Positions 51,158-64,000 of a stretch of 64,000 nucleotides of DNA are shown in pieces. Position numbers and translations under genes: made by a program. This DNA comes from Thermotoga profunda AZM34c06 (GTDB taxonomy: Bacteria > Thermotogota > Thermotogae > Thermotogales > DSM-5069). The DNA lies in contig NZ_AP014510.1 in the NCBI RefSeq assembly GCF_000828675.1, positions 186,001 to 250,000 on the forward strand, read 5' to 3'. Every line of letters starts with the position of its first letter. Position 1 is the first letter of the stretch. The notes under the pieces were generated by a model, which worked only from the letters and a program-made list of their open reading frames with translations, did no database searches and was not told where the DNA came from.

Positions 51158-52255
51158 TTGAAAATTAAAGCTGTGTACATCAGCGGTAAATTCACCGTTA
51201 TGATCCCTCTTTTAGAATTCCTTGTGATATGGATTGGTTTGCCGGTTCTTATCTTCAGTTTACTGAATTGGAAAATTTCTGCCTGGATCATTTTTCTTGG
51301 TTTTATTGGAAGTTTGATTCTATCTCTTTTTGTTTGCGTCATAACCTACAGATTTGTAATAAATCTGGCTCGAAAAAAGTATGGTGAAATCTTATTAGAA
51401 AATGATTGCCTTAGATATAAAATAGGTAGGCGCAGAGGCATGATCGATTTGAAAAAACCACATGATGTTAGAATTCGCGCCGGATCAAGTGGGTTAGGTC
51501 AGCCAGCTGCTCAGATTGATTTTCGACAGACTGGATTAATGATCCATCTTTATGGAGCAATTCGCGAAGAAGTATTGAATGCATTTCCAGAATCGTACTT
51601 CATCAGCGAGCTTTCTGTTTTACCAGAAGAAGGTTTATGGGGTTTTACACTTTATACAGATAATCCTGAACAAAAGAGATTTTTCTTTGCCCTGTTAGAA
51701 CTTCTTTGGAAAAATCGAGATAAAAACACATACTTTCAATCCTATGCACATTATCCTTGGCATCAAAAACCTAACCCAGCTTTCAAGTACATCAAGGTTA
51801 TAAAAACCGATTCCATGACATTTGAAGAAAAAGAATTTATAAATACAATTTTGACACAGTTTGTGGACAAACTCGAAAACTCCTATGTACGTGCAACTCC
51901 AGATTACCTTGTGGGATGGGCTTATAAATCTTTTAAAAGCACATGGACTGGCACTCCAGATTACTATTGTGTAATGCCCATTGGTTATATTCATGTTGAA
52001 GTTTCTCTGCCAAAACCGAATTGGAAACCGTTCATTATTGGACATGTTATCTTAGAAACTCTTTCTAATTTAATCGATTCTTCCAGACCATATGGTCCCA
52101 TCCTTCAGGATCATAGGTACTTATATGTGCGTGGATATAATGAAAATGGTGAAGTTTTGGAAATGGCTTTCGATTGGTATGATTTAACAGATTCACTATA
52201 TGAGGAATCTGAAATATTTGTTCGGTTTGTTTCCAGCCGTTTCCATTCCTCTTAG
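51158..52255 (+). CDS. Unknown membrane-anchored protein ending inside the CRISPR array
   Basis: About 365 residues. Two N-terminal membrane helices (VMIPLLEFLVIWIGLPVLIFSLL and AWIIFLGFIGSLILSLFVCVITYRF) are followed by about 300 soluble residues rich in Trp and Tyr (SYAHYPWHQKPNPAFKYIK, TWTGTPDYYCVMPIGYIHVE). I recognise no family. The TTG at 51158 sits 7 bases after a G6 ribosome site. TTG at 51152 is the alternative. The stop TAG (52253-52255) and the last residues (RFHSS) are read from the first CRISPR repeat, so the original C-terminus may have been replaced. Confidence 0.75.
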   Translation: MKIKAVYISGKFTVMIPLLEFLVIWIGLPVLIFSLLNWKISAWIIFLGFIGSLILSLFVCVITYRFVINLARKKYGEILLENDCLRYKIGRRRGMIDLKKPHDVRIRAGSSGLGQPAAQIDFRQTGLMIHLYGAIREEVLNAFPESYFISELSVLPEEGLWGFTLYTDNPEQKRFFFALLELLWKNRDKNTYFQSYAHYPWHQKPNPAFKYIKVIKTDSMTFEEKEFINTILTQFVDKLENSYVRATPDYLVGWAYKSFKSTWTGTPDYYCVMPIGYIHVEVSLPKPNWKPFIIGHVILETLSNLIDSSRPYGPILQDHRYLYVRGYNENGEVLEMAFDWYDLTDSLYEESEIFVRFVSSRFHSS

Positions 52256-55200
52256 ATTCGATTGAAACTCGAAGAATGGAGAAAAATGGGTTTTAATGTA
52301 ATCTGTTTCCATTCCTCTTAGATTCGATTGAAACTTTTTATGAATTCCTTGGGTACAGTAGTCATTCATTTGTTTCCATTCCTCTTAGATTCGATTGAAA
52401 CTATGTATAGTGCTTGCTCAGGATTCATTGTCTGTGTGGTTTCCATTCCTCTTAGATTCGATTGAAACAATGCTGGGTGTCCATGACAGCTGTGAGCCGT
52501 CCTTGTTTCCATTCCTCTTAGATTCGATTGAAACGTTTGACTTTTTCGATCAACTCAGAGGGTAGAATTGGTTTCCATTCCTCTTAGATTCGATTGAAAC
52601 GATTTTTGCAAAACGAAAACCATACCATGTGAAAGAGTTTCCATTCCTCTTAGATTCGATTGAAACATTATGGAGTACAACAGAGAAATGGGTATTACTT
52701 TATGTTTCCATTCCTCTTAGATTCGATTGAAACTTGGGTGCCCATGCACCCAAAAAGGAGGGAAATTTAGTTTCCATTCCTCTTAGATTCGATTGAAACT
52801 GGGTGCATGAGCACCCAAAAAAAGGAGGGAATTTTAGTTTCCATTCCTCTTAGATTCGATTGAAACCAGTTCTTCCACCATGATATGCATTTCTTTCTAA
52901 TTGTTTCCATTCCTCTTAGATTCGATTGAAACGGGGGTGAGATTAATAAGAACAGAGAAAGGAACACGTTTCCATTCCTCTTAGATTCGATTGAAACTTA
53001 CACGTTTGACTATTGACATGTAACAAATATCAAAGTTTCCATTCCTCTTAGATTCGATTGAAACTTACCACGAATCGACGGTGCTATTGAGTTGAATTCG
53101 TTTCCATTCCTCTTAGATTCGATTGAAACTCAGAGGTCTTTATAAGCACTTCAAAGTGCCAGTTGTGTTTCCATTCCTCTTAGATTCGATTGAAACAGAT
53201 TCTCCACGCTTTGCTCATACACAGCAAGCAACGTTTCCATTCCTCTTAGATTCGATTGAAACTTGAAGGTAATCACGAAGCGAGAACGAGGAAGCAGGTG
53301 TTTCCATTCCTCTTAGATTCGATTGAAACCCCGCTTTTACTGTTTCAGTACCACTTGCAATCAGTGTTTCCATTCCTCTTAGATTCGATTGAAACTTGCA
53401 TCCGAAGCAATGCAACCATTATTCGATGCGTGTTTCCATTCCTCTTAGATTCGATTGAAACGATGCCTCAACTAAAAAAGATGCACTTATAAAACTCAGT
53501 TTCCATTCCTCTTAGATTCGATTGAAACTTGAAGGGTATGGCATTCAGCCCAATCCTAACACATAGTTTCCATTCCTCTTAGATTCGATTGAAACCATTG
53601 ATCGAAAGAATTGCTGCTCTGGAAACGAAAGTGTTTCCATTCCTCTTAGATTCGATTGAAACCGTTTCTCGTACTATGCTTGAATTACCACGAATCGAGT
53701 TTCCATTCCTCTTAGATTCGATTGAAACCAGGCCTTTTTGCTTAGTGAGGTGAGAACAATGCCTTGTTTCCATTCCTCTTAGATTCGATTGAAACCCAAC
53801 TGCAGAATTTCAGGATCATCCGTTTCTACCAGTTTCCATTCCTCTTAGATTCGATTGAAACTTGCAAAACGCTCACCAAGATCGGCAATGGTCTTTAAGT
53901 TTCCATTCCTCTTAGATTCGATTGAAACTCTCGACTATCTTCATCATCTTGTGAAAGCTCATTAGTTTCCATTCCTCTTAGATTCGATTGAAACCGGTGA
54001 AGATCATGACGAATCAGGATTCAGGATTGTGTTTCCATTCCTCTTAGATTCGATTGAAACGAAAAAGAAAAGCCCGCATCAAAGCGGGCATATCTCGGTT
54101 TCCATTCCTCTTAGATTCGATTGAAACACAATTCAGCGTCAAGTACAGACTTAGCCTTACTACAGTTTCCATTCCTCTTAGATTCGATTGAAACCAAAAT
54201 TGTAGCCACTATTCCTGCAAACTCGGACTGGAGTTTCCATTCCTCTTAGATTCGATTGAAACAATTAGAAGCAGGAAAGAGACAACCATCGCTCCGATGT
54301 TTCCATTCCTCTTAGATTCGATTGAAACCTGCCAAAGAAGTCTGTTTATTTCTGTTATCTTATCGTTTCCATTCCTCTTAGATTCGATTGAAACAAAGTA
54401 CTCCTGCACCGAAAGTAAAAGTTTCGCCAGAGTTTCCATTCCTCTTAGATTCGATTGAAACCTGGCAAGGAACGCTGGGTATACAGTAATGTTTTGAGTT
54501 TCCATTCCTCTTAGATTCGATTGAAACGGTGGAGTGTATGTTAAAGGTTATTGGTGAGAGTTTGTTTCCATTCCTCTTAGATTCGATTGAAACGTTAGTG
54601 CATTAAGTGTTGCGTTTGTAGTGAACTGGAGTTTCCATTCCTCTTAGATTCGATTGAAACGGTTGAGAAAGACAGATCCTGAAGCCTGCAAAATCCTGTT
54701 TCCATTCCTCTTAGATTCGATTGAAACTTTGGTTGACGAAGCAAACATATGGTTTAGTTCTCGGTTTCCATTCCTCTTAGATTCGATTGAAACGGGGTTC
54801 GTATTATCCAGACGCTTTAGTTCGTGTATAGTTTCCATTCCTCTTAGATTCGATTGAAACCTATGTTGTGCCCACCAATTCAGCAAATCTTTGTCCCTGT
54901 TTCCATTCCTCTTAGATTCGATTGAAACAATGCATCAACAAGTTGTGCACCTTTTATAGTTATGGTTTCCATTCCTCTTAGATTCGATTGAAACATCTAT
55001 GCTTAAATGTGGCTTTAAAATTATTACACACGGTTTCCATTCCTCTTAGATTCGATTGAAACCAACACCACTCATGTCAACATTTACATTTAATGTATCG
55101 TTTCCATTCCTCTTAGATTCGATTGAAACAAGAAATTTACATGATTTTCTGATTATTTGTAATAGGTTTCCATTCCTCTTAGATTCGATTGAAACCACTT

Positions 55201-58124
55201 GATCTTGCACTTGTTGGGGTCAAGAAAATAATCGTTTCCATTCCTCTTAGATTCGATTGAAACTGTTCTTGCGAACGCGAAATAGTTATGAAAAGTGTGT
55301 AGTTTCCATTCCTCTTAGATTCGATTGAAACCGTGTGAAGGCTGGTTTATCATCAGCCCTGAGTCGATGTTTCCATTCCTCTTAGATTCGATTGAAACTG
55401 GCTTCCAGGGTGGAAGGAAGCAACAGAAAATTGGGTTTCCATTCCTCTTAGATTCGATTGAAACGTCTGTATCACAATAATATACATTTTGCCATCCTGT
55501 TTCGTTTCCATTCCTCTTAGATTCGATTGAAACTTATCGGATTTGGAAAGAGCAGATCGAGCTCGAACAGGTTTCCATTCCTCTTAGATTCGATTGAAAC
55601 TGTCTTTAGTCTCGGTAGATGTCGAATTGTTCACAAGTTTCCATTCCTCTTAGATTCGATTGAAACCTCCTTCGCAAAACTGCATTTTCTGGTATTAAAG
55701 TTGTTTCCATTCCTCTTAGATTCGATTGAAACACTAAAGAACGGCTCACAGTCATGGACACCCAGCATGTTTCCATTCCTCTTAGATTCGATTGAAACCA
55801 ATTCAATATCTGCTCTAAGAACGTTTGCATTGTAGTTTCCATTCCTCTTAGATTCGATTGAAACCTGAGCAACACGCTTGAAAAGATACCTTACGATGTT
55901 CGTTTCCATTCCTCTTAGATTCGATTGAAACTGTGACGGGAGCAGAACTATCATCAGGAGTGAGAACTGTTTCCATTCCTCTTAGATTCGATTGAAACTG
56001 AGTTGTTTGAGATGAAAAAGCAAGTCTTGATCCGGTTTCCATTCCTCTTAGATTCGATTGAAACTTGGTTGTGTTGGTGTTTTGCCTTTCAAGCGTGACT
56101 CGTTTCCATTCCTCTTAGATTCGATTGAAACTGCCAATCTTCGTGCACTCATGCCTGTTTGAACCGAGTTTCCATTCCTCTTAGATTCGATTGAAACGTG
56201 GTGATCGTTTCAAGATGCGATTTTTTGACTCATGTTTCCATTCCTCTTAGATTCGATTGAAACATGGTGAATGGAAAATTTCTTGCGCAGGACTTCTGGG
56301 TTTCCATTCCTCTTAGATTCGATTGAAACAAGTTTGTTTTTGAACAGCAAGCGGTATCGAATCTCTGTTTCCATTCCTCTTAGATTCGATTGAAACACGA
56401 TGTTGACAAAGCCCAAGCAAATGTAAATGTCAGTTTCCATTCCTCTTAGATTCGATTGAAACCCTGCGGCAGACAAAACACGTTCATACTCTTCAACCAG
56501 GTTTCCATTCCTCTTAGATTCGATTGAAACCCTGCGGCAGACAAAACACGTTCATACTCTTCAACCAGGTTTCCATTCCTCTTAGATTCGATTGAAACAT
56601 TTTCCATTCACCATCGACGTATTTTTTGTAAGGAGTTTCCATTCCTCTTAGATTCGATTGAAACTGTAAGGATAACGCTTGTTTTCAGAATCCAAGAAAG
56701 GTTTCCATTCCTCTTAGATTCGATTGAAACGTGATGGGGGGGTTTAACCTCCCCGTTTTGAAAGGAGGTTTCCATTCCTCTTAGATTCGATTGAAACTCA
56801 GCCACTCTATATCACCTTCAAAACCGTTGTAAGAGTTTCCATTCCTCTTAGATTCGATTGAAACGCCTGATAGTACTCTTACCTGTGATCTTGGCTCTCT
56901 GTTTCCATTCCTCTTAGATTCGATTGAAACCTCTCATCGCGTTGAATCGCTGTTTTTTCTGTATATATGTTTCCATTCCTCTTAGATTCGATTGAAACTT
57001 TTTTCTTCTGGAGAGTTGTTTATCAGCAACGAGAGTTTCCATTCCTCTTAGATTCGATTGAAACCCAAATGCGAGCGCTAAATTATCGGGAGTTGCATCG
57101 AGGTTTCCATTCCTCTTAGATTCGATTGAAACATGGTAGATGTGATATGCCAGATCATCTCGTTGCTGAGTTTCCATTCCTCTTAGATTCGATTGAAACT
57201 TGTTGGTATTTACAGAGTAATCACGTCTGAAAAGAGTTTCCATTCCTCTTAGATTCGATTGAAACGCAAGTTGTTCGCTTGCGGTTTAGGTTGCTCAGTT
57301 TGTTTCCATTCCTCTTAGATTCGATTGAAACCTCTTTCAGAACGTTGCTGATTCTTCATTTCATCAAGTTTCCATTCCTCTTAGATTCGATTGAAACGCG
57401 TTAGAAGATTATAAAAAGGAGATGTGGCAAAAGAGTTTCCATTCCTCTTAGATTCGATTGAAACGTTATAAGCGTCGTGAGGATAACCTTACGACGCTTT
57501 GTTTCCATTCCTCTTAGATTCGATTGAAACGTATGGTTTCTGATTTAACGGTAACTGGTTTCTTGTGTTTCCATTCCTCTTAGATTCGATTGAAACTAAG
57601 TAGTAAGAGTGAGATATACTTCTTCATCAACAGTTTCCATTCCTCTTAGATTCGATTGAAACCTTGAAGACAAAGACATTATGCATGTTGAGGTTACTTG
57701 TTTCCATTCCTCTTAGATTCGATTGAAACGCTTTCCACCAACAGTCTCTTCACGTGATTCAGGGAGTTTCCATTCCTCTTAGATTCGATTGAAACTGCAA
57801 TTGAATGTGTAAATCTTGTTGTTGAAGAAATGTTTCCATTCCTCTTAGATTCGATTGAAACTATTATAAATCTTTCAAAACTGCAGAGCGTAGAATGTTT
57901 CCATTCCTCTTAGATTCGATTGAAACGAGGTGCCTTTATGAACACATATTTGAAGTATTCGTGTTTCCATTCCTCTTAGATTCGATTGAAACTGATTATG
58001 AGTGTATTGTATTAAATAGATTGAAAGGGTTTCCATTCCTCTTAGATTCGATTGAAACTGAGAATCAATCTGTTTATAGTCAAATACTTCTCCTGTTTCC
58101 ATTCCTCTTAGATTCGATTGAAAC
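52239..58124 (-). CRISPR. CRISPR array, 89 repeats and 88 spacers, type I-B
   Basis: Eighty-nine 30-base repeats, on the forward strand starting GTTTCCATTCC and ending GATTGAAAC, which I counted one by one and saw no variant. Starts are 65-69 bases apart, so spacers are 35-39 bases, mostly 36-37. The cas operon and AT-rich leader lie on the right, so the array is read leftward. The crRNA 5' handle would be ATGGAAAC, and the reverse-strand repeat resembles the Thermotoga maritima one at both ends. Spacers 64 and 65 are identical. The leader-distal repeat (52239-52268) is intact and lies in a coding end. Open frames that run through the array are artefacts of the repeat period. Confidence 0.99.
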
Positions 58125-58565
58125 TCATATTATTCTTAATAGAATATTATCATAAGATTTTATATTTGTCAAAATTAGCTTTGCTACGGGGAATAGAATA
58201 AAACTAATACCTTAGTGAATTCAGGCAAAATGGTTTGTCACTTGTGGTTTTGAACCATTCGGAATTTTTTCATTATCTAAGGTTCACTCAGAAAATTGGC
58301 ATTTTCACGATTTTTATTAACAAAACCAAAAAACGATTGTGAATTTTCACAATGTGGTTTAAGTCATTATTATATCAAAAAATCTCTACTATGATATATA
58401 TACATAGTATATCGATTATCACAATATAGTTTTAATTTAACAATTGATATGTGATAATTCATTTTACGCAATTTCGAGTGAAAACATGTACGTTTGGATG
58501 ATTAATATTACTTCACTATTACATTATGTTTAACAAGGAAGTTTGTGAGTCCTAAAGCGCATTTA
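58125..58565 (-). other. CRISPR leader
   Basis: A 441-base AT-rich stretch with no gene between the leader-proximal repeat and the cas3 stop. It contains the pre-crRNA promoter (58144-58172) and two similar 14-base blocks, TCACAATGTGGTTT (58347-58360) and TCACAATATAGTTT (58419-58432), about 72 bases apart, that may bind a factor for adaptation or transcription. Confidence 0.85.
58144..58172 (-). promoter_or_regulatory. Promoter of pre-crRNA
   Basis: On the reverse strand TTGACA (58172-58167, perfect), a 17-base spacer and TAATAT (58149-58144), with TG one base before the -10 (extended -10). Transcription should start near 58137, about 12 bases before the first repeat. Confidence 0.8.
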
Positions 58566-60806
58566 TCAAAAAATCATTGTTGCTTCACTTCTTTCAAAGC
58601 CTGTCTGATCGTTATACCAGTATTTTAAATTGTCTTTTGTTATAATTAAGAAACCATTTTCTACCATCAAGGCTCCTGTTAGGTCTTCCTTCAATATGGG
58701 CACGTCAATCATATACATAGCCATTTGTCGAAGTAGTTTTTTGATTTGGGCTAATTTTTCGAATTTTTCAATAGATTGATTTTTCATGACTTGGTTTAAT
58801 TTTTCTCTTAAACTGACTGCGTAATCATCGTATTCGACAAAAATTGCTGCTACTTGATATTTTCTGTCTATTAGGTGAAACCTACTACCTATCTCTTCAA
58901 ATTGAAGAGGCGATATTAACTCAAGGAGATTATCTTGGTCAGTATTTCCTCTCTTCTTAATTTTTTCAAAATATTCCCTAATAAGGTGTGGAAATTCTTT
59001 TTCTTCGCATGACTGTTTTTCACGTGTTACTTCCCTTGTGATGTTCAACAAAAACGAATCATAAATATATGATGAAAAACTCCTCTTAATATTCTCTTTT
59101 TGTTCGAAAATTCTATAAATATGCACTTCGCCCAGATGGCTCTCAAATGCTCTATTACATCTTCCGCTAACCTGTATTATACTGTCCAATGGTCCTTCGT
59201 CTCTTATAACCTTATCAAACGATATGTCAACGCCTGCCTCGATTACCTGAGTACTTATACATATAACTGGCTGTCCTTTGATTTGTTTGAGTTTTCTTAT
59301 CCTCTCCATTCTTTGCTTGGGAATTACATTAGAGGATAGATAAAACAGGTTATCATCAGGAATTTTTTCGTACAAATATTTGAATAATTCTTTCGATTCA
59401 CGTATTGTGTTTAAAACAACCAACAATGTCTTTTTGTGCATGAGGGTTTCTTTTGCAATTTGTTCAACAACATTTAGAAATTCTGCGTACTCAACCTCTC
59501 CATGAAAATATACTTTGGTTCGATTGATTTTTTCACTATAGTTTCTTTTCACTATATTTTCTGTATTGTTCAAAATCATTGGTTGAGTCGCTGTAGATAA
59601 AATTATTGTGGTGCCAAATTGCGTTAATTCATTCAAGATCTGTGCTATTGGTTCCCAATATTTGTGAGGTATTGATTGTACTTCGTCCAGAATAATCACG
59701 GAATTCAGTAGTTTATAGAAAAAAGGGACCTTCCTGTTTGTCAAAAGTGACTCAAACAGAGAAACAAATGTTGTTACTATGACTTGTGCGTACCAATTTT
59801 CTACTAAAATGCGTTGTACCGAGTGCTGTTCATAATCTTTGTTTTTATATTCATAATCTGCAAGATGATGGTATGGTAGTATGGTTGTCGCATCATATTC
59901 GGTTTTTTCTAAAATCCTATGCAGAGTTTCGATGGTTTGATCTATTATATTTATGAATGGTAATGCATAAACTATAGTGGAATTTTCTGTGGCTTTTGAT
60001 AAAGCGACTTTTATGTTTGCCAAAGTTTTACCAATGCCTGTTGGTGCAGTCATAGACAAAATTCTGCTTTTAATTGTCTGCAATGAACGATCGACTTCTT
60101 CGTGAAATTGATTTCTTAATTCGTAAAGTTGGTTATCACGCGGAATCGATTTTTTATATTGCTCAACGAGTTCGATCGTGAGACTTGGAATTATATCAAT
60201 CTTGAGATCTTTTAGAGCGGCATCTTCATGATCAGAACTCACTAAAATAGATGTGAGAGTATGCAACAGGATATAGTCTTTTAGATTGAATTCTGTATTG
60301 AAAGTTAATTTTGAAATTTGTCTTTTGATGTTTTCATCTATGGTTTTTATGTCTGGTATGTGTGTATTTGTTTTTGCTTTAATCCAGTTCAAGAAAGATT
60401 CTGGTATGGTTTGAAATTGTTTTTCAAGTTGATAGATATTTTCTTCAATTAGTTCAAAATTTTTGAGATTTTCATGGTGGTTCCTGACAACGAAATAGCC
60501 AAAACAAGAAAGTTTGAGGTCAAATCCGTTGTTCTGTAAAGCACTAAAACTAATCAAAGAAGAAAGAGGAGCATGTGAGGTGCGTTTGCCACTCTTCGGG
60601 TCAGCCATGTAATCTTGAAAATCTTTGCTTGCTTTTGCAAAATCGTGGCATAATGCACAAAGTTCGACGAGTTTCAAAGCCTGTTCATTGCTTATTCCAA
60701 AAGGTTCCCAGTTTATTTTTTTGGCTTTCTCACATGCTCTCTGTGCCGTGCCCAAGAGATGATCAACCAAAAACCTATCTGGATGGGATTTCAATCGATC
60801 CAACAT
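58566..60806 (-). CDS. cas3: CRISPR-associated nuclease/helicase Cas3
   Basis: A 746-residue effector that unwinds and degrades DNA recognised by Cascade. The N-terminal HD nuclease has His16 in VDHLLGTAQ, HD at 54-55 in LCHDFAKAS, and His110/111 in RNHHENLK. The superfamily 2 helicase has Walker A APTGIGKT (254-261), the DEAD-box variant DEVQ (374-377), motif III STAT (404-407) and motif VI VSGRCNR. All catalytic sites look intact. The ATG overlaps the cas5 stop by 16 bases. Confidence 0.95.
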   Translation of the reverse strand: MLDRLKSHPDRFLVDHLLGTAQRACEKAKKINWEPFGISNEQALKLVELCALCHDFAKASKDFQDYMADPKSGKRTSHAPLSSLISFSALQNNGFDLKLSCFGYFVVRNHHENLKNFELIEENIYQLEKQFQTIPESFLNWIKAKTNTHIPDIKTIDENIKRQISKLTFNTEFNLKDYILLHTLTSILVSSDHEDAALKDLKIDIIPSLTIELVEQYKKSIPRDNQLYELRNQFHEEVDRSLQTIKSRILSMTAPTGIGKTLANIKVALSKATENSTIVYALPFINIIDQTIETLHRILEKTEYDATTILPYHHLADYEYKNKDYEQHSVQRILVENWYAQVIVTTFVSLFESLLTNRKVPFFYKLLNSVIILDEVQSIPHKYWEPIAQILNELTQFGTTIILSTATQPMILNNTENIVKRNYSEKINRTKVYFHGEVEYAEFLNVVEQIAKETLMHKKTLLVVLNTIRESKELFKYLYEKIPDDNLFYLSSNVIPKQRMERIRKLKQIKGQPVICISTQVIEAGVDISFDKVIRDEGPLDSIIQVSGRCNRAFESHLGEVHIYRIFEQKENIKRSFSSYIYDSFLLNITREVTREKQSCEEKEFPHLIREYFEKIKKRGNTDQDNLLELISPLQFEEIGSRFHLIDRKYQVAAIFVEYDDYAVSLREKLNQVMKNQSIEKFEKLAQIKKLLRQMAMYMIDVPILKEDLTGALMVENGFLIITKDNLKYWYNDQTGFERSEATMIF

Positions 60807-61486
60807 ATATTTTCACCTAATTCATTTATTGAATAGATAGGTTTTGAATATCGCAATATTTTTAATGGTTTTGCGTTTTTTTCAATCCAGTATGAAGCAA
60901 CCTCTGTTGGCCGCCTTTCATCATCCATGTTTAAAACCATCTGTTCTTTTATCAGTATTTGGTCCCTTTGTGGTTCTATAATGGTTCCGCCTGTGATTTT
61001 CATCACTGTATGTAGCTCAAGAGGTGGTTCTGCTTGTGTGATTTGAAAGCATCCAATATAACTGAAATCTGCGATCATTTGAGCTTGTCCAAGATATGGT
61101 GTGAAGATACTGATTTTGTTCTCAAGATGGTATTTTAGTTGTTCAAATTTCTCAAACTCTGAAATATACACCCTATATGCTGGAGATTTTATCAATTCCA
61201 ACAATATTTGCGTTCTTTGGTTATGACCTGATCTGGTGTCGATGTAGTTTGTACTTAGATTAACTTTTCTGACAGGCTTAAGTGATCTCACCGCAATGTG
61301 TGCTTGATCAAAGGTTCTCAAGTGCTTGCTGCTGTTGGTTGTTTCATTTTCTATACCTAAGATAGCTCCTAATAAACCACAGATAGCAGTTCTTGGAGGA
61401 AAGCAATACGATGTTGAACTGGTTGTCGTGTAGCTTCTTCTGAATATGGCATATTTTCCGAATACATCAAAAACCAGTACTTTCAT
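60791..61486 (-). CDS. cas5: Cascade subunit Cas5 (type I-B)
   Basis: A 231-residue RAMP protein that caps the crRNA 5' handle. The family N-terminus is VLVFDVFGKYAIFRRSYTTTSSTSYCFPPRTAICGLLGAILG, with the usual PPRTAxxGLLGAILG loop (about 31-45). Spacing to cas7 is a 4-base overlap. Subtype Cas5h/t is likely from context. Confidence 0.93.
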   Translation of the reverse strand: MKVLVFDVFGKYAIFRRSYTTTSSTSYCFPPRTAICGLLGAILGIENETTNSSKHLRTFDQAHIAVRSLKPVRKVNLSTNYIDTRSGHNQRTQILLELIKSPAYRVYISEFEKFEQLKYHLENKISIFTPYLGQAQMIADFSYIGCFQITQAEPPLELHTVMKITGGTIIEPQRDQILIKEQMVLNMDDERRPTEVASYWIEKNAKPLKILRYSKPIYSINELGENICWID

Positions 61487-62367
61487 GGTAGAATCACTGC
61501 CTGAATATTCATTTTTTTGAACTCTTCTGAGAGATCTGTTTCTTGATCTTTTTTGAAAAGCTTTAATTTGGAATCTTGCTTGTACTCGATTTTTTCTATT
61601 TTTTCTTTGTTAAGTTCAAGTTTTTCTAAAAGTGCTCCCATTTCAAGTGCTACTTCCGATATGTCCCTGATTGCTTTTTCATCGAGGTTGGTTTGAAGTT
61701 TTATGTATGAATCAAGTTCGCCTATGTGATAGTTGGTCTTCTCTTTGTAAACAATTCTGATAAGTAACCTTGGATTGTGCTCTATCTTGGAACGAGTGAT
61801 TAGATTTTTTGTACCGTACCACATGGCTTTGAGAAGTTTTTGAAGATCTTCTTCAGTTGCTTTCGTGATTTTTGCGCTGTTTTCATTTGCAACACCATAG
61901 AAGCATATCAAAGCATAGGGTAGGAGGTATTCTTCTCTAAAACTTCTCTGTTGCGCGCCCTCTTGGCTTGTGAATGCTGCCGTGCCTTGTTGGAAGACTA
62001 CCTTGACTGTATGCAGTGATGTGCCGGGTCTGAATTGTACTGGTCCAGTGTAAGAGGTGTCACCTTGTTTTGGAATTGGAATCACAGCTCCAAACAATCG
62101 AACATCGAGGCATTTTAAGGCGTCTTCTTTTTTTTCGATACCGAGTTCTTTACGACGTTGGTTTGGATCGACTGATTCACCAGATACCCATATTTCTTCT
62201 CCCCAAGATTGCCACTCATCCCTAATTGTTCTTTTTAATCTCACATCACTGACGATACATTTTTCTGTTTCTTCATCAATTCTTGGTTTGTTTTCGTCCA
62301 AAGGATCTCCGTTGGGATTTGCCCATTTTACATCGTACAGAAAGAGAATTTCAGACCTGTTATTCAT
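61483..62367 (-). CDS. cas7: Cascade backbone Cas7 (Csh2 family, type I-B)
   Basis: A 294-residue RAMP protein that forms the crRNA filament. The opening FLYDVKWANPNGDPLDENKPRI and VSDVRLKRTIRDEW are hallmarks of Csh2. A later PGTSLHTVKVVFQQGTAAF also fits. The start overlaps cas8b by 8 bases and the stop overlaps cas5. Confidence 0.95.
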   Translation of the reverse strand: MNNRSEILFLYDVKWANPNGDPLDENKPRIDEETEKCIVSDVRLKRTIRDEWQSWGEEIWVSGESVDPNQRRKELGIEKKEDALKCLDVRLFGAVIPIPKQGDTSYTGPVQFRPGTSLHTVKVVFQQGTAAFTSQEGAQQRSFREEYLLPYALICFYGVANENSAKITKATEEDLQKLLKAMWYGTKNLITRSKIEHNPRLLIRIVYKEKTNYHIGELDSYIKLQTNLDEKAIRDISEVALEMGALLEKLELNKEKIEKIEYKQDSKLKLFKKDQETDLSEEFKKMNIQAVILP

Positions 62368-64000
62368 TTTCCTCTACCTCCTCAATTTTGAAAGGTTCTT
62401 TGTTTGAATAAGCCAATCCAAGTGTGAAAACAAAATTCAGTTCATCGACAGTCGATTTCTGTTTGGCTGATTCAAGATAATATGCCGCAGCGGATTTCAT
62501 CAAAAGATCAATCCTTTGACCATAACTACCGTACTGTTGAAGTTTGTTTCGAATTTCCGCGAGAAGTCCTTGAATGTCTTGCATGTTCATCTTGAGCCCT
62601 TTGAGTTTTTTGAAAAATGGTGTTGCCTGTCTCTTTGCATATTGAATTGATAAGACCTTTCCTGCAAGAATTCCTGTGAGAAAGACGGCCTTTTTCCAGG
62701 ATTCATTGAAAAACTCTGGATATTTGTCAAAAAACGCGCTTAGCTCGTCACTGTTCACTTTATTCTCCCCCTTTTTAAGATTGAAAACTCCTATTTGGTT
62801 TAAATATAAAATACTGGCAAAACTCAGATATGTCAGTTTTCTCCATCCAAAGCTTTCTCTGTCATTGGAAACATATTCTTGTGCGGCTTTTCGTATTCTT
62901 CTCATGCAGTACCATAGAAACCTTTGTAAATTGTAAGGTTCAGCCTGGAAGATCGATCTTACTAAAGCAAGGTATTCTTTTCTTTCTTCAGACCTTGATG
63001 TTGGTTTTTCATACAAATACCACAATAAACCAAGAGTTGGTTCAGGAATATCTTCCATGTCCATTTTCTGTTTAACTTCCTGAGCAACTTCCACTAATTG
63101 CCTAAGTCTTGTTGGTGAGATTTCTGTTAGATGTAATTCTATTCTTTGCTGACTTTGATTCATTTCCATGAAAAGAAAATCGTAGTGTACCTGATCTTGA
63201 TCACAAAGTGCTTGTTCAATGGTTTTTTCTTTTTTCGCAAAGTCTTTTAATTCATTAGAAACCTGTTTGATCTTGTTTATTACATTTTTCAAAGCGTTTT
63301 CATCTTCCACTACCAGTGATGGTATCACCCAGAGTTTGTTTCCAAGAAAGTTGAATGACAGGTCTTTCCTCAAAACATTCGCTCCATTTTGAAGATTGGT
63401 TTTGCATTCTTCGCAGATCGGTAGAACTTTTATTGCATCCTCTTTTTTTAAGCTTGGACAAAAACCTGGTTTGTCGAACGTTGCAAAAGTAAAGACTTCA
63501 TTTACCGTTGCCGATACAGCTTTACTTTCACCACAAAAGTGACAAACACCATTTACGCTTGTTTCTGTGGCTTTGCTGAATGCTTTTTTCAGAAAGAGTT
63601 GTTTAAATGGTTCATATTCGGCGGGTCTGAGTTCTTGATTGTCTTGGATTATTATGATTGTCAGGTAAGTACTTTTTTCATTCATATTTTGGAGAATGTT
63701 CTCGATCTCTTGAATGATTTTTTCTGAATTTTCTTCAATGAGTGCCCCGATATTTTCAACTTCTCCTTCAAAAAAATTCCGCATCTTCTGAAGGGCTTTT
63801 TGGATGTCTTCTTTTAGTTTTTCTGCGCTTTTTTTGTTTTTGAGAGTCAGATTCACTGTGGGTGATTTTCCTGAAACCTGTCCTCTTTGGTCACAATACA
63901 AAAGCAAGTGGTTTTCATTTGGTGTTTCGATGATTCGAATCCCCCTGTATTCCATTGGTGCTAAATTAATGAACAAAGCTAATCCATTTTCAGTATTCAC
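62360..64000 (-). CDS. cas8b: Cascade large subunit Cas8b (Csh1 family), N-terminus cut by window
   Basis: At least 546 codons are in view and the frame is still open at the right edge. It has a zinc-finger-like pair, CHFCGESKAV and CEECKTNL, about 45 residues apart, and the helical C-terminal half of Csh1 proteins (VRSIFQAEPYNLQRFLWYCMRRI). It recognises the PAM in type I-B. An ATG near 64000 is not assumed to be the start, since Csh1 proteins usually run longer. cas6 and the adaptation genes should lie further right. Confidence 0.9.
   Translation of the reverse strand: MNTENGLALFINLAPMEYRGIRIIETPNENHLLLYCDQRGQVSGKSPTVNLTLKNKKSAEKLKEDIQKALQKMRNFFEGEVENIGALIEENSEKIIQEIENILQNMNEKSTYLTIIIIQDNQELRPAEYEPFKQLFLKKAFSKATETSVNGVCHFCGESKAVSATVNEVFTFATFDKPGFCPSLKKEDAIKVLPICEECKTNLQNGANVLRKDLSFNFLGNKLWVIPSLVVEDENALKNVINKIKQVSNELKDFAKKEKTIEQALCDQDQVHYDFLFMEMNQSQQRIELHLTEISPTRLRQLVEVAQEVKQKMDMEDIPEPTLGLLWYLYEKPTSRSEERKEYLALVRSIFQAEPYNLQRFLWYCMRRIRKAAQEYVSNDRESFGWRKLTYLSFASILYLNQIGVFNLKKGENKVNSDELSAFFDKYPEFFNESWKKAVFLTGILAGKVLSIQYAKRQATPFFKKLKGLKMNMQDIQGLLAEIRNKLQQYGSYGQRIDLLMKSAAAYYLESAKQKSTVDELNFVFTLGLAYSNKEPFKIEEVEENE

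Follow-up and report, generated by a model that had tools for sequence, protein, structure and literature searches.

The CRISPR array and its cas locus

Towards the right end of the window, the 64,000-nucleotide stretch of DNA analysed here, a CRISPR array adjoins a cas operon (Table 1). The array holds 89 perfect copies of the repeat GTTTCCATTCCTCTTAGATTCGATTGAAAC and spacers of 35-39 nt (n = 88), numbered from the left as in the preliminary description. No other array in the 2.19-Mb genome uses this repeat. Cas8b/Csh1, Cas7/Csh2, Cas5 (of the I-B kind) and Cas3 all gave NCBIfam matches above the curated cut-offs. Past the window, cas8b is followed by cas2, cas1b, cas4 and cas6, and then by cmr6, cmr5, cmr4, cmr3, cas10 and cmr1. 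Cas1b, Cas2, Cas4 and Cas6 are all encoded within the same operon as the I-B effector genes. By gene content, the system is type I-B (Cas8b1) and shares its cas cluster with a type III-B effector. The Cas8b was 57-65% identical to the Cas8b of relatives and 35% identical to that of genome G096, which we take, as a lead only, to be probably T. maritima (MSB8). PDB searches with Cas8b and Cas4 as queries returned no match, and the one locus found by a Cas3 search of genome contigs had no matching array.

Table 1. Features of the array and the cas operon, in window coordinates.
Feature	Position	Strand	Remarks
CRISPR array	52239..58124	-	89 identical 30-nt repeats, 88 spacers; predicted leftward transcription
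spacer 4	52469..52504	-	5' CTA from spacer 53; variant allele with 3-nt indel
spacer 13	53065..53099	-	exact L055 protospacer, TTA
spacer 15	53197..53232	-	exact protospacer in L052 and L055, TCG
spacer 20	53529..53565	-	exact L055 protospacer, CCA
spacer 22	53663..53698	-	CCG from spacer 13 overlap and from exact L055 protospacer
spacer 53	55733..55768	-	-1 base A alone visible, from spacer 4
spacer 61	56264..56299	-	diverged targets with CTG, CCG or CAG
spacer 66	56599..56634	-	TTA via spacer 67; diverged L052 target CTA
spacer 67	56665..56700	-	3' end overlaps 5' end of spacer 66
spacer 72	56999..57034	-	TCA via spacer 74, 12-nt overlap
spacer 74	57133..57169	-	TTA via spacer 72, 12-nt overlap
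leader	58125..58560	-	promoter-like TTGACA-17-TAATAT, 58172-58144, directed towards the array
cas3 (helicase-nuclease)	58566..60806	-	TIGR01587, TIGR01596
cas5 of type I-B	60791..61486	-	TIGR02592
cas7/csh2 of type I-B	61483..62367	-	TIGR02590
cas8b (TM1802 family)	62360..64000	-	runs past the window end

The preliminary description had assumed a leftward crRNA direction. The leader promoter, the order of the cas genes and the degenerate leader-distal repeats of the relatives G002, G004 and G010 support leftward transcription as the probable direction. The promoter is a candidate, a consensus match rather than a proven element, and a scan for the consensus gave 7 sites against 4.0 expected. 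The leader element TTGACAAAT is present also in the leaders of G010 and of both arrays of G008 (a relative that we take, as a lead only, to be Pseudothermotoga elfii), and this conservation adds weight to the putative promoter.

Several spacers stand out by their make-up. The repeat-spacer unit of spacers 64 and 65 (56463-56568) is exactly duplicated in tandem. Spacers 8 and 9 (52734-52836) are two versions of a single hairpin-plus-GGAGG sequence, captured with almost identical ends, and spacers 28 and 79 are hairpins too.

Spacer overlaps within the array

The preliminary description had deduced the PAM from the array alone, by reading the bases 5' of one spacer from another spacer that overlaps it. 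We recomputed all end-to-end spacer overlaps of at least 8 nt in the leftward crRNA sense. Spacers 13 and 22 overlap by 14 nt, spacers 72 and 74 by 12 nt, and spacers 67 and 66 by 8 nt; spacers 61 and 66 share 16 nt at their 3' ends, which reveals 3' flanks only. Spacers 4 and 53 are antisense to each other where they overlap, across a 3-nt indel (89% BLAST match), and were read directly. All five full triplets came out as described before (TTA for spacer 66, TTA for spacer 74, TCA for spacer 72, CTA for spacer 4 and CCG for spacer 22), as did the single visible base, A, of spacer 53. The CCG of spacer 22 was also found at its exact protospacer in virus contig L055, which bears out the deduction from the array. 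Overlaps within an array can yield the right PAM without phage sequence.

Random arrays of the same make-up contained 0.7 overlaps of at least 8 nt per array and, in 60 sets, none of at least 12 nt; the 12- and 14-nt overlaps are well outside what chance would give. Overlaps of at least 8 nt between adjacent spacers occurred 0.05 times per random array (~1 in 20), and the 8-nt overlap of spacers 66 and 67, taken alone, could be due to chance. It is supported by the stitched sequence of spacers 61, 66 and 67, which forms one open reading frame (FLDSENKRYPYKKYVDGEWKISCAGLL), and by a gene of virus contig L052 in which the homologous sites of the three spacers lie in identical geometry.

Protospacers in viral contigs carry a 5' YYR motif

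We pooled 472 spacers (452 distinct), drawn from this genome and from members of its family whose repeats are nearly identical, differing by 2-3 bases from the one here. IMG/VR viruses and prophages served as targets. A degenerate DNA pattern for the stitched peptide led to five IMG/VR contigs, and the terminase, tape-measure and capsid proteins of these five led to further virus contigs. Two of these further contigs are probably prophages of isolate genomes, as judged by their IMG numbers. The same proteins also led to prophages in two genomes from another, neighbouring family within the order. When only the best target of each distinct spacer was counted, 27 protospacers reached ≥94% identity. 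Shuffled spacers at the same thresholds gave essentially no matches (1 in seven contigs). Because 23 of the 27 near-exact targets came from relatives' arrays, the A:G ratio of this genome itself rests on few sites.

We observed YYR directly 5' of 26 of the 27 protospacers, against a background of 11.8% (P = 1.7e-23, binomial test). Random positions on the same contigs reached a maximum of 12/27 in 20,000 draws. The triplets were TCA (9), CCA (5), TTA (4), CTA (4), CCG, TTG, CTG and TCG (1 each) and CAA (1). By position, the bases were C12/T15 at -3, C16/T10/A1 at -2 and A23/G4 at -1 (0.93, 0.77 and 1.31 bits, respectively), with a pyrimidine at -3 in 27/27 and at -2 in 26/27. All other flank positions, on both sides, held at most 0.1 bit; the lack of signal in the 3' flank shows that the PAM was placed on the correct side and the crRNA read in the correct, leftward direction. 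All four exact protospacers of this genome's own spacers carried YYR (TTA for spacer 13, TCG for spacer 15, CCA for spacer 20 and CCG for spacer 22). The logo of virus-contig flanks therefore agrees with the YYR motif proposed from the array, in the pooled set and in the own exact targets alike. TCA had rightly been called a known type I-B PAM; it has been used for editing in Clostridium autoethanogenum (PMC10328091).

At 85-94% identity, 10 of 15 sites carried YYR, and the signal faded below 85%. This is expected, since the sequenced virus is then not the one that was sampled. The mismatch profile along the diverged protospacers showed no clear seed.

The lone near-exact exception, CAA, lies at L052:12172 and belongs to spacer G008b_88 (35/36), whose register is shifted inwards by one base from a TCA. 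A diverged spacer from the same genome, G008_61, has the unslipped TCA register. From these two positions, the CAA looks like a 1-nt acquisition slippage off TCA. Another CAA occurs at the terminase site of spacer G008b_78: its exact target (L053:1308) has CCA, and most diverged homologues (L052, L056, L062, L063, L064, L068, L069-type) have CAA, which could reflect loss of the PAM by related phages or simply drift.

The preliminary description had allowed for a YYR or a TNA logo. A at -1 in 23/27 sites would also fit TNA or NYA as the true motif, and TTN/TNA is listed for C. thermocellum in PMC13199841. This reading is very improbable, because -3 was C in 12/27 sites, and -2 was never G and was A only once, at the slipped-looking site. 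In addition, G is the last base at four near-exact sites, including two exact targets of this genome's own spacers. We rejected TNA at the present sample size, and NYA was ruled out by the lack of purines at -3 (0/27). The YYR alternative of the earlier expectation held and TNA did not, -2 being a true pyrimidine.

Acquisition, interference and the type III-B effector

The present analysis establishes the direction, by sequence signals, and the side and motif of the protospacers on record. We estimate a probability of about 0.93 that the array is leftward, that its spacers are taken by Cas4-Cas1-Cas2 from sites downstream of YYR, and that Cascade very probably reads the same motif. Transcription would run leftward from the leader promoter at the right end of the array. 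The Cas4-Cas1-Cas2 of the adjoining type I-B operon would select YYR, and spacers would be taken from the DNA directly downstream of it; at -1, A outnumbers G roughly sixfold. Before Cas3 is called in, the type I-B Cascade (Cas8b1-Cas7-Cas5) very probably reads YYR, and we infer that it needs this motif. YYR differs from the repeat end, AAC, at all three positions, so that the array itself would be spared. As a motif drawn from stored spacers, YYR is best regarded as an acquisition record filtered by selection, and would be an acquisition-level PAM rather than a measured interference PAM.

The cas cluster examined combines one array with repeat GTTTCCATTCCTCTTAGATTCGATTGAAAC, one acquisition module, and I-B and III-B effectors. 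The array is probably shared with the Cmr effector, a known arrangement; shared I-B/III arrays are common (PMC8482600). It is unlikely that the array mainly serves type III-B (Cmr) and shows a PAM only because its acquisition was borrowed from type I. This would account for the complete cmr operon in the same cas cluster, beside which no cas1 or cas2 was found except the I-B set, and for the single array with this repeat. It would also fit the orientation of the crRNAs at ≥94% identity, 20 of which are antisense and 7 sense to the reading frame. This strand bias is suggestive, but was not significant after control for YYR site density (P = 0.055; P = 0.16 at ≥85% identity). About one third of the spacers have the sequence of the mRNA strand, which makes them useless to Cmr, and a full I-B effector is present.

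Stored memory lacks YYT

G was found at -1 in 4 of 26 YY sites, compared to 49% expected (P = 4e-4), which indicates that A is favoured over G beyond composition. YYT was absent from all 26 YY sites (P = 2.6e-7 for YYD sites in even use). The spacers of G096, compared with the same viruses, had YYR at 5/5 sites at ≥94% identity and at 10/12 sites at ≥74%. None of these 12 sites had T at -1, and none was YYT. Under even use of YYD, the probability of finding no T is 0.06 for 5 G096 sites and 0.003 for 10, a small sample.

The YYD PAM of T. maritima was measured in 2026, and T. maritima Cascade binds and cuts YYD targets in vitro, YYT included (PMC13199841). Unlike this Cascade, the recorded protospacers had A23/G4/T0 at -1, and stored memory looks stricter at this position than T. 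maritima Cascade is in vitro. One explanation, to which we give slightly less than even odds, is that interference accepts a broader PAM (YYD, the T. maritima motif) and that YYR is a narrower acquisition motif set by Cas4-Cas1-Cas2. The cutting of YYT targets in vitro and the lack of YYT in both spacer sets are in line with it. However, the same pattern would arise if Cascade acts poorly on YYT in the cell and such spacers get lost, and the YYD comparison is with the Cascade of T. maritima, not with Pseudothermotoga's own. A split between acquisition and interference would not be unprecedented, since in C. difficile the acquisition motif CCN lies within the interference motif YCN (PMC8406132).

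For Thermotogales type I-B systems in general, we tentatively suggest, at odds just short of even, that acquisition may accept YYR only (mostly YYA) and that the Cascade of the same organisms may also cut YYT. If true, YYT sites would be a reserve usable by interference and never stored by memory. T. maritima Cascade uses YYT in vitro and stored memory lacks it, a discrepancy that opens the question of distinct motifs for acquisition and interference to a test.

Relation to known systems

The motif is YYR with A favoured, a Cas8b1 type I-B PAM related to the recently measured YYD of T. maritima. The system resembles T. maritima I-B1 in its TM1802-family Cas8b, a repeat ending in GGAAAC (AAC at its very end), pyrimidines at -3 and -2, and A as the best base at -1 (PMC13199841). 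It shares Cas8b1, the AAC repeat end, TTA and TCA with C. (Hungateiclostridium) thermocellum I-B1, for which TTN/TNA is listed in PMC13199841; the system here differs from it in making full use of C at -3 and no use of purines at -2. With one array, I-B and III-B effectors and a type I PAM, the locus is like category 3 (shared repeats and acquisition genes) of a survey whose main text does not name Thermotogota (PMC8482600). We found no paper on a PAM for the genus Pseudothermotoga in the literature searched. New here are the logo at family level, the lack of YYT and the set of candidate viruses. The PAM first guessed from the array is now well supported, which is of use to endogenous I-B genome editing in thermophiles.

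Candidate viruses and spacer neighbourhoods

Spacers compared with named phage records gave weak chance matches only. The own spacers, compared with 103 Thermotogota genomes in a search that scored few candidates per genome and was not exhaustive, matched this array and one G008 spacer only. A pattern for the spacer 4/spacer 53 site matched no virus, and one for the spacer 24/G008_107 site matched five contigs, none with a spacer match of at least 80%.

A by-product of the protospacer search is a set of candidate viruses of Thermotoga and Pseudothermotoga. The contigs L052-L056, L062-L069, L076, L078, L083, L084 and L102-L105 are tailed-phage contigs or prophages with head and terminase genes in common. 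Both the Pseudothermotoga-like arrays (G000, G008, G004) and the arrays of G096 target them. The set is a candidate for viruses of hosts without any matching named phage record.

Within array clusters of the window, and on the L064/L068 contigs, adjacent spacers often had a virus type in common. Spacers 13, 15, 19, 20, 22 and 25 match L055/L052, and spacers 57-74 match a diverged relative. Such neighbourhoods fit repeated or primed uptake from a single infection. In the second array of G008 (L051:5751-16566), a 10.8-kb stretch splits two repeat blocks.
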